Shown here: piece by piece, positions 9,258-57,371 of the stretch
Layout of the letters: each line of letters starts with the position of its first letter
How positions within the stretch are numbered: the stretch's first letter is position 1
NCBI RefSeq assembly: GCF_005576615.1
Contig: NZ_CP040330.1
Location: 1,240,001-1,304,000, forward strand
Source: Natrinema versiforme
GTDB taxonomy: Archaea; Halobacteriota; Halobacteria; Halobacteriales; Natrialbaceae
Length of the DNA: 64,000 nucleotides
Direction: 5' to 3'
The notes under the pieces: model-generated
Database searches by the model: none
Told to the model about the DNA's origin: nothing
What the model saw: the letters and a program-made list of their open reading frames with translations, nothing else
Position numbers and translations under genes: made by a program

Positions 9258-10297
9258 GCGTCGATCACCTGCTCGACGGCGTGGACGATGAACGCCGTGG
9301 TGTCGATCTTCTCCTCGAGGAGCGCTCGCCGTCGCCGTTGCCAGATCGCCGGATCCGCCGCGACGATCGTGGTGGCAAGTCGCGACAGATCCGCCGGCGT
9401 CTCCGTTTCGGATCGGGAGAACACGAGCCCGTACCGGTCTTCCAGTTCGGTCAGCACGCCGGCGGAGAACGGCGAGACGAACATCGCGGGCGTGCCGAGG
9501 AGCGCGCTCTCGATGGTCATCGTCCCGCTCTCGCCGATCAGCAGGTCGGCGTGGGACAGCAGGTCGTGTATCCGGTGTGGCGGCACGGAGACCTCCCTGT
9601 CCGCGAGCGACGGTGGAAGGGCCGCCTCGGCGCTTATCACCACCCGACAGCCGGCCGCCTCGAGTCGCTCGACGAGCGGTTCGACCTCTTGCAGCCCGTC
9701 TTTCCCCACGTCGTGTGCGGCCGTCCACGAGACCAGTCGTAACACGACCAGCGTCTCGTCCGCGTCGGCACCGATCCGGTCCAGTACCGTCGGGTCCGGA
9801 CTGAACCGGTCCGGATGGAGATACGCCAGTTCGTGGTAGCCCGAGTACCGGACGTGGTTCGAACCGAGATCGTCCCGGAACGAGTCGGGCGTACAGATGA
9901 CGTCGGAGAACGGGAACGCGAGGAGGTTCTGTACCGTCGCGTGCTCGGTGTCGGTAAACAGCACGCTCCGCCCGCCGCTGACACGCGACGCGTGCGTGAT
10001 CGACGGCTCCGCGATGGCCATCAACGCCGCGGGCTCCAACTCGCGAGTGCGTCGGATCACCTCGTACTCGTATTTCGCCTGCACCTTGGCGAGTTCGTAC
10101 AAGTTGCCGGGTTCGGCCGCGAGCGTCCGATACTCGATGTCGTAGGCCTCGAGCAGATCGCGGACGAGATCCTTCTCCCGCGCGAACACGTGCACGTCGT
10201 ATCCCCGGTCCTCGAGTTCGCCGATCGCGTTCCGAAAGAAGTGGACGTGCGCGGGGTGTTGGATCGTGCTCACGACGCGCTCGGCGGTCTCACTCAT
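9254..10297 (-). CDS. DUF354 family glycosyltransferase-like protein
   Basis: The product is 347 residues from ATG 10297 (MSETAERVVSTIQHPAHVHF). It matches archaeal DUF354 proteins, which have the GT-B / UDP-GlcNAc 2-epimerase-like two-domain fold. An N-terminal QHPAHVHFFRNAIGELE block is followed by a middle TDTEHA region, and the C-terminal half has HDLLSHADLLIGESGTMTIE, the usual donor-nucleotide site with the conserved Glu. It overlaps the neighbours on both sides (8 bases with GT2, GTGA with the deacetylase). It may be a glycosyltransferase of the polymer, or the 2-epimerase that would convert the GlcNAc-type product to the ManNAc form; the sequence alone does not decide. Confidence 0.8.
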   Translation of the reverse strand: MSETAERVVSTIQHPAHVHFFRNAIGELEDRGYDVHVFAREKDLVRDLLEAYDIEYRTLAAEPGNLYELAKVQAKYEYEVIRRTRELEPAALMAIAEPSITHASRVSGGRSVLFTDTEHATVQNLLAFPFSDVICTPDSFRDDLGSNHVRYSGYHELAYLHPDRFSPDPTVLDRIGADADETLVVLRLVSWTAAHDVGKDGLQEVEPLVERLEAAGCRVVISAEAALPPSLADREVSVPPHRIHDLLSHADLLIGESGTMTIESALLGTPAMFVSPFSAGVLTELEDRYGLVFSRSETETPADLSRLATTIVAADPAIWQRRRRALLEEKIDTTAFIVHAVEQVIDA

Positions 10298-46313: not shown

Positions 46314-47690
46314 TCAGTCGTCCGCCGCGGCCGGTTCGACCTCTTCGATGCTCGAGTCGGCTCGCTCGAGGTCCTCGAGGTACTCGTCCGCATCCAGTGC
46401 GGCCTTCGAGCCCATGCCGGCGGCGGTGACGGCCTGCTGGTAGTGGTAGTCGACGACGTCGCCGGCACCGAAGATGCCGGGGACGTGGGTTTCGGTCTGG
46501 CCGCCGCCCTCGCCGCCTTTGGTCTTCAGGTAGCCATCGGCGTCCATCTTCACGTCGGTGCCCTCGAGGTAGTCGGTGTTGGGCGTGTGGCCGATGGCGA
46601 AGAAGACGGCTCCCACGTCGAAGTCGAACTCCTCGGTTTCGGGGTCCTCGAGGCGGTCGGTGGGGTGGCCCTTGTCGTTTTCAACGAGGGTGACGTGGTC
46701 GACGCCCTCCTCTTGGGAGCCGTGGATCTCGATCAGTTCGGTGTTTTTCATGATCTCGATGTCGCCGTCTTCGACCTTCTCCTCGACGCGGTCGACCCAG
46801 TAGTCCTCCGCGCGGAACTCCTCGCGGCGGTGGGCGATGTAGACGGTGTCGGCGAACTTCGTGAGGAAGGTGGCCTCCTCCATGGCGGCGTCGCCGCCGC
46901 CGACGACGAGCATGTCCTCGCCGCGGAAGAACGCGCCGTCACAGGTCGCACACGTCGAGAGGCCGTAGCCCATGAGTTCGTCCTCGCCGGGAATCTCGAG
47001 CGTGCGGGCGCTGGCACCCGAGGCGGCGATGACGGCGTCGGCGGTGTAGACGTCGCCGTCTTTCATCTCGACGCGGAAGGGACGGCTCGAGTCGTCACCA
47101 GAACGCGACGCGTTCTGGTTTGCAGTCGAGCTTTGCTCGACGCGCTCGACGGACTCGATGATGCCGTTTTTCAGGTCGGCGCCGAACTGTTTGGCCTGCT
47201 CTTTCATGTTGTTGACCAGTTCCGGGCCGCCGATACCCTCGGGGAAGCCGGGGTAGTTGGCGACGTCGGTGGTCAGGGTGAGCTGGCCGCCGGGTTCGTC
47301 GCCCTCGATGACCAGTGGCTCGTTGTTCGAGCGGCCGGCGTAGATCGCGGCGGTTAGCCCGCCGATGCCGGTGCCGGCGATGATGAGTTTGCGGTGTTCG
47401 ACGACCTCGTCATCGTCGTCGGTCGCGATGCCGAGTTTCTCGTCGAGTTCGCCGGTCTCGTTGAGCGCGCTGGTGTCGTCCCAGCCGCCGATCAGTTCGT
47501 CGTCGATGAATACTTCGGGGGCGGTCTTTCGGCCGTCCGCACGCTCGACCATCTCCTCGAAGAGATCGTCGTCGTCGGTGACGTTGTACGTCTCGTACTC
47601 GATTCCCTTGCTGTCGAAGAGGTCCTTGGCCTTCTCGCAATACGGGCAGTCAGTCTTCGTATAAATCTCGACGCGTGGCTGGTCGCTCAT
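46314..47690 (-). CDS. Glutaredoxin-thioredoxin reductase fusion protein
   Basis: The product is 458 residues from ATG 47690 (MSDQPRVEIYTKTD). Residues 1-85 are a glutaredoxin domain with CPYC at 15-18 and the cis-Pro region TAPEVFIDDELIGG. The rest is a thioredoxin-reductase-like flavoprotein: IIAGTGIGGLTAAIYAG for FAD, STCATCDGAFF with the redox Cys pair, VVGGGDAAMEEATFL for NADPH and VPGIFGAGDVVDYHYQQAV. The fusion should pass electrons from NADPH to the attached glutaredoxin. A peptide (EQSSTANQNASRSGDDSSRP, about residues 187-206) is an insertion coded by a palindromic DNA element. GGTTTAGG about 24 bases upstream of the ATG may be its own promoter. Confidence 0.93.
   Translation of the reverse strand: MSDQPRVEIYTKTDCPYCEKAKDLFDSKGIEYETYNVTDDDDLFEEMVERADGRKTAPEVFIDDELIGGWDDTSALNETGELDEKLGIATDDDDEVVEHRKLIIAGTGIGGLTAAIYAGRSNNEPLVIEGDEPGGQLTLTTDVANYPGFPEGIGGPELVNNMKEQAKQFGADLKNGIIESVERVEQSSTANQNASRSGDDSSRPFRVEMKDGDVYTADAVIAASGASARTLEIPGEDELMGYGLSTCATCDGAFFRGEDMLVVGGGDAAMEEATFLTKFADTVYIAHRREEFRAEDYWVDRVEEKVEDGDIEIMKNTELIEIHGSQEEGVDHVTLVENDKGHPTDRLEDPETEEFDFDVGAVFFAIGHTPNTDYLEGTDVKMDADGYLKTKGGEGGGQTETHVPGIFGAGDVVDYHYQQAVTAAGMGSKAALDADEYLEDLERADSSIEEVEPAAADD
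47098..47141 (-). repeat. In-frame palindromic insertion in grx-trxR
   Basis: 47098-47118 is a perfect odd palindrome with 10-base arms CCAGAACGCG and CGCGTTCTGG around a single A. 47125-47141 is a second hairpin, GTCGAGC-ttt-GCTCGAC. In coding direction the small hairpin comes first, then 6 bases, then the long palindrome. The same arrangement and a shared core occur in the nnr gene at 56098-56140. The insert keeps the reading frame. Confidence 0.75.
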
Positions 47691-55892: not shown

Positions 55893-57371
55893 ATGATTAC
55901 AGGCGAGCGAATGGCCGCCGTCGACGCGAACGCCGCGGCGCTGGGCGCGCCGCGAAAGCAGTTGATGGAATCGAGCGGGAACGCCGTCGCCCGCGCGGTC
56001 CGCGAGGCGGCCGACCCCGGCGCTCGAGTCGCCATCGTCGCCGGCCGCGGGAACAACGGCGGGGACGCGTTCGTCGCCGCCCGTTTCCTCGATGGTACCG
56101 AACGTCATTCGGCATCAGACCGAGACGCGTCGCGTCTCGGGCGTGAGTACGACGTTACCACATTGCTGCTCGGGCGCGCCGCGAACATCGGCACGGACAT
56201 CGCCCGCGAGAACTGGGACGCCCTCGAGCAGGCGGAGTACGATACGCGAGAGATCACGGACTCGAGCGAGTTCGCCCTCCCCGACGCGGACGTGATCGTC
56301 GACGCGATGCTCGGAACGGGGATCAGCGGCGACCTTCGAGAGCCCGCCGCGACCGCGGCCGACGCGATCAACGACGCCGACGCCACCGTGGTCGCGGTCG
56401 ACGTGCCCTCGGGCTTCGACGCCGACGCGGGCGACCACGCGGCAAACGGCGTCGAGGCCGACCGGGTCGTCACCTTCCACGACACGAAGCCGGGACTCGA
56501 GGAACTCGCGGCCGACGTGACGGTCGCGGACATCGGAATTCCGGCCGCTGCGGAGCGGTTCGCCGGCCCCGGCGATGTCGACCTCGCTCGCCCCGAAAGC
56601 CGCGACGGCCGCGCGTTCGTCATCGGCGGCGGTCCCTACACCGGCGCGCCGGCGCTCGCCGCGCAGGCGGCGCTCCGTGCCGGCGCGGAACTCTCCTTCG
56701 TCGCCGCGCCCGACTCCGTCGCCGGCGAGATCCAGGGCTACGCCGAGGACCTCATCGTCCAGCCCTACGAGCACGACCGGCTCACCCCGGAGCAGGTCGA
56801 CGGCCTCGTCGATACGGCCGAGCGCCACGACGATATCGTCGTCCTCGGTCCGGGTCTCGGCACCGCCGACGAAACCCTCGAGGCCGCCCGCGCGTTCCTC
56901 GAGTCCTATACCGGGCCGGCGGTCGTCGACGCCGACGCGCTCGAGGTCGTTCCCGACCTCGAGACGGACGCGACGCTGGTCTGTACGCCCAACCGCCGCG
57001 AACTCGCCCGCATGGGCGGCCCGGATACCGACTCGCTCCGGGACGCGGTCGACGAAATCGAGTCCTTTGCAGCCGAACTGGGCCACGTCGTGCTCGCGAA
57101 GGGCGTCGACGACGTGGCGACCGACGGCGAACGGACCCGGATCAGCCGCGCCGGCGCGCCCGGCATGAAAGTCGGCGGCACCGGCGACACGCTCGCCGGC
57201 ATCGTCGCGGCGCTGCTCGAGCACGCCGACCCGTTCGACGCGGCGACGGCGGGCGCGTACGTCAACGGACTCGCCGGCGAGCGACTCGCCGAGACCGAGG
57301 CGAACGGGCTCCTCGCGTCGGATATGCTGGACGAAATTCCGGCGGCCCTGTGGGGTGATGCTGATGAGTGA
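55893..57371 (+). CDS. nnr: Bifunctional NAD(P)HX epimerase/dehydratase
   Basis: The product is 492 residues from ATG 55893 (MITGERMAAVDANAAALG). The N-terminal epimerase domain (about 1-220) has AGRGNNGGDAFVAARFL and VDVPSGFDADAG; the C-terminal ADP/ATP-dependent dehydratase domain has LAAQAALRAGAELSFVAAP, LGPGLGT, CTPNRRELARM and GAPGMKVGGTGDTLAGI. The enzyme repairs hydrated NADH/NADPH. Residues about 70-88 (GTERHSASDRDASRLGRE) interrupt the usual epimerase alignment and are coded by a palindromic insert. The stop overlaps the moaC start by 8 bases. Confidence 0.95.
   Translation: MITGERMAAVDANAAALGAPRKQLMESSGNAVARAVREAADPGARVAIVAGRGNNGGDAFVAARFLDGTERHSASDRDASRLGREYDVTTLLLGRAANIGTDIARENWDALEQAEYDTREITDSSEFALPDADVIVDAMLGTGISGDLREPAATAADAINDADATVVAVDVPSGFDADAGDHAANGVEADRVVTFHDTKPGLEELAADVTVADIGIPAAAERFAGPGDVDLARPESRDGRAFVIGGGPYTGAPALAAQAALRAGAELSFVAAPDSVAGEIQGYAEDLIVQPYEHDRLTPEQVDGLVDTAERHDDIVVLGPGLGTADETLEAARAFLESYTGPAVVDADALEVVPDLETDATLVCTPNRRELARMGGPDTDSLRDAVDEIESFAAELGHVVLAKGVDDVATDGERTRISRAGAPGMKVGGTGDTLAGIVAALLEHADPFDAATAGAYVNGLAGERLAETEANGLLASDMLDEIPAALWGDADE
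56098..56140 (+). repeat. In-frame palindromic insertion in nnr
   Basis: 56098-56112 is CCGAA-cgtca-TTCGG. After 7 bases, 56120-56140 is a perfect odd palindrome with 10-base arms CCGAGACGCG and CGCGTCTCGG around a single T. This matches the layout of the insert in grx-trxR (small hairpin, 6-7 bases, 10-1-10 palindrome), with the same core ACGCG-T-CGCGT in coding direction. Encoded peptides are similar: ERHSASDRDASRLG and EQSSTANQNASRSG. Confidence 0.75.

Follow-up and report, generated by a model that had tools for sequence, protein, structure and literature searches.

The insert in the gene nnr probably belongs, at odds of about three in four, to a haloarchaeal family of mobile DNA elements that are short and non-autonomous and have a mode of life like that of the Rickettsia palindromic elements (RPE). 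The gene was identified on the forward strand of the window, the 64,000-nucleotide stretch of Natrinema versiforme DNA that was analyzed, as an open reading frame at 55893 to 57371 with YjeF_N (PF03853) and NAD(P)H-hydrate dehydratase (PF01256, Carb_kinase) domains. A sequence-only reading had put the insert at about 18 codons; it measured 51 bp, or 17 codons, at 56094 to 56144 on the same strand, where it encodes GTERHSASDRDASRLGR, in frame between FLD and EYDVTTLLLG. The hairpin, the 7-base spacer and the perfect 10+1+10 palindrome described in that reading were all located: the left hairpin, CCGAA-CGTCA-TTCGG, spans 56098 to 56112 (+), the spacer 56113 to 56119, and the right hairpin, CCGAGACGCG-T-CGCGTCTCGG, recovered by a palindrome scan, 56120 to 56140 (+). 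Both stems co-vary in the family.

In a sister genome (G077), which is 95% identical in DNA over nnr, FLD is joined directly to EYDVTTLLLG and the insert is absent. Among the nnr regions read from fetched orthologues, three carry the insert, namely the window genome (G000) and two genomes from two other genera (G041 and G080), in which the 51-bp insert occupies the identical codon junction. The other relatives read at this site lack it; of the 30 loci fetched, roughly half were read here at the sequence level, and the remaining genomes were judged by match length and the absence of strong model matches. The peptide is missing from nearly all relatives and is not a general feature of haloarchaeal Nnr.

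A second copy lies on the reverse strand in grx-trxR, a glutaredoxin-thioredoxin reductase fusion gene recognized by its translation and by PF00462 and PF07992 (46400 to 47690, the gene extending further). This 51-bp element (47094 to 47144, −) is likewise in frame and encodes RVEQSSTANQNASRSGD; its left hairpin, TCGAGC-AAA-GCTCGA, was assigned from sequence and structure at 47126 to 47140 (−), and its right hairpin, with 11-bp arms around one base, from a palindrome scan at 47097 to 47119 (−). The nnr and trxR copies give a gapless 51-column alignment and share one reading frame. The common layout is 4 nt, a stem of 6 with a loop of 3, 7 nt, a stem of 10 with a loop of 1, and 4 nt. Across nine mutually related sequences, 15 doubly changed stem cells were counted versus 4.6 in shuffles, a figure that is not to be read as a probability. 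A covariance model of nine copies (R1) scored the trxR copy at 76.1 bits and the nnr copy at 60.4 bits (E = 4e-15, nnr being in the training set). A model trained without either copy, on 45-bp units only (R2), ranked trxR first (E = 6e-4) and nnr second (E = 1e-3) in the 64 kb, and because this ranking was obtained out of sample, both places belong to the family.

The sequence-only reading had also given the two copies a common layout and a common core. The layout held, since the two-hairpin model is significant and the 51 columns align, but the core ACGCGNCGCGT alone is not significant: three sites were observed in the window versus 1.3 expected, and the third, at 9983, is not a family member. 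We rejected the core as a family marker, as two of its 19 sites in the genome are members. Separately, 19 sites in 4.67 Mb compare with about 96 expected from window shuffles (about 1.3 per 64 kb), with 0 sites for a backward control pattern; this scarcity may reflect avoidance of CGCG-rich palindromes.

The trxR insert was found in G076, G080, G081, G063, and G104 and is missing from G077 and most of the genus, while G084, G094, and G089 have diverged forms. In a further three genomes (G057 to G059; loci L091, L086, and L090), 12 extra bases (VERVEQ...) stand in place of the 51-bp unit of relatives, as if an older insertion had lost its interior through a deletion that kept the frame.

Scans for more copies with R1, R2, and pattern searches recovered many, far above chance. 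The units are 45, 51, or 57 bp long with two hairpins each. The 45-bp type, reached by a peptide-guided pattern, has an AGC-like start, a stem of 8 with a loop of 3, a linker, a stem of 7 with a loop of 3, and a terminal GAC, and its stem pairing is accompanied by compensatory changes in the alignment. R1 located additional in-frame copies, for instance in a DUF255/DsbH protein (L106) and adenylosuccinate synthetase (L107). R2 matched 117 of 125 family genomes at an E value of ≤0.01, with 0 to 22 copies per genome and best E values down to 7e-14. In the phylum sample, at an E value of ≤1e-4, it had matches in 26 of the 33 Halobacteriales genomes and in none of the roughly 164 other genomes, and the bare hairpin pattern matched 49 of 393 phylum genomes, all of the same order, with 0 control matches. 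The family is confined to Halobacteriales. Its constant part, CANNCAGAACGCNNNGCGTTCTGNKGAY, had at least 120 matching stretches, and the matches listed are haloarchaeal save one titled "Euryarchaeota archaeon." One 63-base consensus of the 57-bp type had no match in haloviruses, and no Rfam family matches the unit itself.

Head-to-tail arrays occur at a 45-bp pitch and also at a 57-bp pitch (L256), and some tandem pairs reach about 110 bp; arrays of three to four units at a 45-bp pitch are present in G175 and G287. Copies are found outside genes as well. In Halorubrum (L127 to L246; e.g., L127, L128, and L147), many apparently noncoding copies share a downstream GACGACGTAAGCACCGCAGGGAGCGA... 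within a larger repeat, which may be a separate composite element. At five loci from several genera (L306, L314, L315, L369, and L374), a near-identical noncoding copy has very similar flanks (GACGACGGCTGGTTAT...), and four of the five have a stop in the coding frame.

Within genes, the units are almost always read in the same frame. A six-frame scorer placed 67 of 70 copies judged coding, representing about 29 unrelated gene sites when grouped by flanking peptide, in one orientation and frame, and 11 of 12 copies of the CAGAACGC type use the equivalent frame. Usually five or six of a unit's six frames are free of stops, so chance would scatter the copies over the frames. Unit lengths are divisible by three, and the preferred frame encodes a hydrophilic peptide, e.g., SEERSSSSSRTQSDD, or ...NQNASRSGD in the longer types, so that insertion adds about 15 to 19 amino acids to the host protein. 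Because the preferred frame yields a hydrophilic peptide, the same-frame bias is best read as selection after insertion. The hosts include PolX, PurA, phosphoglucose isomerase (PGI), orotidine-5'-phosphate decarboxylase (PyrF), an aminotransferase, a luciferase-like monooxygenase, a cupin, and CNNM/CBS, and also the N-box of histidine kinases, in which tandem units give NAVEHGSTSNRTESGDAVEHGSTSNQTESGDAVEH. Such tandem N-box units, each remaking NAVEHG, were seen in L289 and L302 (both G013), L307, L365, L366, L384, and L386. The genome that the window comes from has further in-frame copies, or relatives that have diverged, in genes for a cupin (L333, C2:3256687), phosphoglucose isomerase (L334, 448720), OMP decarboxylase (L335, 906494), an aminotransferase (L343, 2645198), and a luciferase-like monooxygenase (L344, 302540), the last two being weak model matches (E of about 0.03).

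Junctions were resolved by empty sites. Several orthologous sites in the window genome are empty by exactly one unit length, in a comparison that covered about 2.06 Mb of the 3.75-Mb chromosome. For example, polX reads FDVS-SEALRASSSRTESDD-DIEDPES in G077 and FDVS-EIEDPES in the window genome, a difference of exactly 45 bp. An RWC codon precedes the unit at 25 of 28 nontandem sites (background, 18%; P = 7e-16), this codon is GAC at 15 of the 28 (P = 3e-10), and a G follows at 24; these statistics derive from 45-bp copies, and the 51-bp copies fit them loosely. No consistent target duplication was seen in the empty-site comparison (e.g., at the polX, L312, and L398 sites). The right end of the 45-bp unit is GAC, matching the left-flank target, and since the unit thereby carries its own target, this can explain the head-to-tail arrays. 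The trxR unit is preceded by GAG. The nnr copy has lost the terminal GAC and ends in GGGCGT, and the codon 5' of it is GAC in G041 and G080 and GAT in the window genome. No very recent insertion between strains of one species was caught. The copies demonstrate repeated copying to many sites, with a target motif, no duplication, conserved pairing, and filtering by reading frame.

Units also interrupt the ends of transposons. In Halorientalis, an IS200/IS605 element has its left-end palindrome split by 57-bp units, and in Natronomonas such units split a similar sequence (left-end sequence in L253, L254, and L252). At the right ends of IS1341-type tnpB elements (L174 and L225), 51-bp units are inserted: the window genome has uninterrupted right ends in which GGGAATCCTC runs directly into GCCCTTCAGGGCGGGGAGGATGTCAA, and L174 has the same sequence with 51 bp between, so the unit is an insertion there. 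In L174 (6242 to 6489), the unit directly follows a stretch matching Rfam sot0042, a guide-RNA-like sotRNA, with a score below the gathering threshold. This adjacency to an RNA, together with the co-varying stems, would suit a functional RNA or regulatory hairpin, e.g., one related to the TnpB guide RNA, that is translated incidentally. We rejected the unit as itself part of a TnpB guide RNA because uninterrupted ends exist, however, and the unit lacks an Rfam match while most of the examined 45-bp copies sit inside unrelated genes, which leaves this explanation with little probability. Still harder to credit is the idea that the unit is spliced out of the mRNA as a small intron. The unit is structured, and some archaeal introns are spliced through helical motifs; however, the coding copies keep a strict frame and a multiple-of-three length and contain no stop, versus a coding-frame stop in four of six noncoding 45-bp copies. 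Such stop-free, strictly framed copies are expected only if the unit is translated.

The history of the two window sites bears on whether the family still moves. The nnr tree places the three carriers on isolated tips and requires 3 changes; on the trxR tree, which is rougher and includes two rows without the right-hand anchor, at least 7 are needed. As the nnr-type unit was found in nnr only, three separate insertions at nnr are no more likely than recombination having spread the filled allele, or than repeated loss. An alternative is an old, now immobile family, without current transposition, in which ancient insertions were often lost or filled alleles recombined between species. It would account for trxR inserts that diverge roughly in step with their flanks, for the 12-bp remnants, for the identical trxR inserts of G000 and G076 within flanks that are 93% identical, and for a unit confined to nnr on three isolated tips with 3 changes, which fits transfer of one allele. 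We consider it unlikely, given the abundance of lineage-specific sites and of tandem arrays, a polX site occupied in G077 but vacant in its sister, and a copy number that ranges from 0 to 22 within one family. It is very improbable that the inserts are ordinary hypervariable protein loops, Ser-rich or acidic linkers alike by composition whose palindromes arise by chance in GC-rich DNA. Haloarchaeal linkers are generally acidic, and the loop that holds the trxR insert does vary in length, with some forms diverged and some partly deleted, but composition would not yield covariance-model E values down to 7e-14 with co-varying stems, copies in noncoding DNA and transposon ends, exact 45-bp differences, and 0 control matches.

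Returning to a mobile family, we compared unit copy number with IS200-type TnpA (PF01797, Y1) in 57 genomes and found no correlation (rho = −0.06). The 20 genomes without detected TnpA have as many copies as TnpA-bearing ones, and genomes with up to 22 copies include some without detected Y1. The copy numbers thus do not support IS200 TnpA as the present mobilizer; no mobilizing enzyme was found, and it may have been lost in many lineages. A unit comprises a subterminal left hairpin, a short linker, a second, right hairpin, and a terminal GAC. The 45-bp units lie exactly 3' of RWC, usually GAC or ATC, with no target duplication wherever an empty site leaves clean junctions, and can be stacked head to tail. 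In the proposed mechanism, the units would move as single strands, recognized through their hairpins and cut on either side at a site resembling GAC, by analogy with minimal IS200/IS605 or PATE elements. A filled allele would then pass between species by homologous recombination and later decay or be deleted, and hairpin pairing would be maintained by structural selection or hairpin-templated correction. The unit would be selfish DNA that the host protein can accommodate, probably within its surface loops.

RPE and the coding palindromes of Wolbachia are repeated palindromic DNAs found in frame in many unrelated genes and also between genes (PMC2229807, PMC10969869), and this is the likeness to the haloarchaeal units. 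The resemblance to RPE suggested at the outset stands for the use of one preferred frame in many unrelated genes (67 of 70) and fails for size and the single palindrome: RPE measure 105 to 150 bp and have a single long stem-loop as well as terminal inverted repeats, whereas the haloarchaeal units are 45 to 57 bp with two separate hairpins, belong to a different clade, and have an RWC target, a comparison made by description. Likewise, the idea that these elements land inside coding sequences describes many copies but not those outside genes or inside IS605/IS1341 palindromes. Palindromic repeats fused into protein genes are also known in an archaeon of another class, Methanocaldococcus jannaschii (Suyama 2005, as cited in PMC2229807), compared here through the description in that citation.

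Among haloarchaeal elements, the palindrome-associated transposable elements (PATE) of Haloquadratum, whose terminal-only 52-bp forms are suspected to move according to the main text of PMC3119063, share near-terminal palindromes, a lack of terminal inverted repeats and of target duplication, and a length too short for a transposase; that main text describes no in-frame insertion in genes, and the fit to PATE is one of description. The units interrupt IS605-type ends, the end type that PATE ends resemble. SMR-A, also of Haloquadratum and as described in the same text, lies inside near-terminal palindromes of IS605-type transposons without target duplication, but is about 110 bp long with prominent inverted terminal repeats, which the 45- to 57-bp units lack. 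REP elements are short hairpins with a conserved tag for which Y1 single-strand mobilization by RAYT has been proposed (PMC3733652); they lie mostly outside genes and carry GTAG or CGTC tags, whereas the haloarchaeal units are often coding, end in GAC, and have a copy number independent of Y1 genes. With elements mobilized by IS200/IS605, the units share a fixed short left-flank target (RWC) that recurs at the right end (GAC) and the absence of duplication; they differ in a copy number that does not follow Y1 (PF01797). In open-access papers, we found no report of in-frame palindromes in haloarchaea and none of this family. The mode of life is already known from RPE; the haloarchaeal family departs from RPE in size and layout and from SMR-A in size and ends, and by description it fits PATE.

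Most known examples of selfish DNA residing in translated genes come from Rickettsia and Wolbachia. An order-wide archaeal family with a target motif, empty sites in close relatives, and copies in core enzymes (PyrF, PGI, and PurA) would make the question of movement testable in cultivable archaea. A bolder and more doubtful proposal is that Halobacteriales might harbor an undescribed mobility system, in which codon-sized double hairpins would be inserted after RWC by an unknown enzyme, leaving genes intact and one frame translatable; it could act as a lineage-wide maker of protein loops, including the tandem arrays that rebuild the histidine kinase N-box. Mobile insertions may also underlie many of the indels in haloarchaeal proteins on which phylogenetic and structural studies draw.
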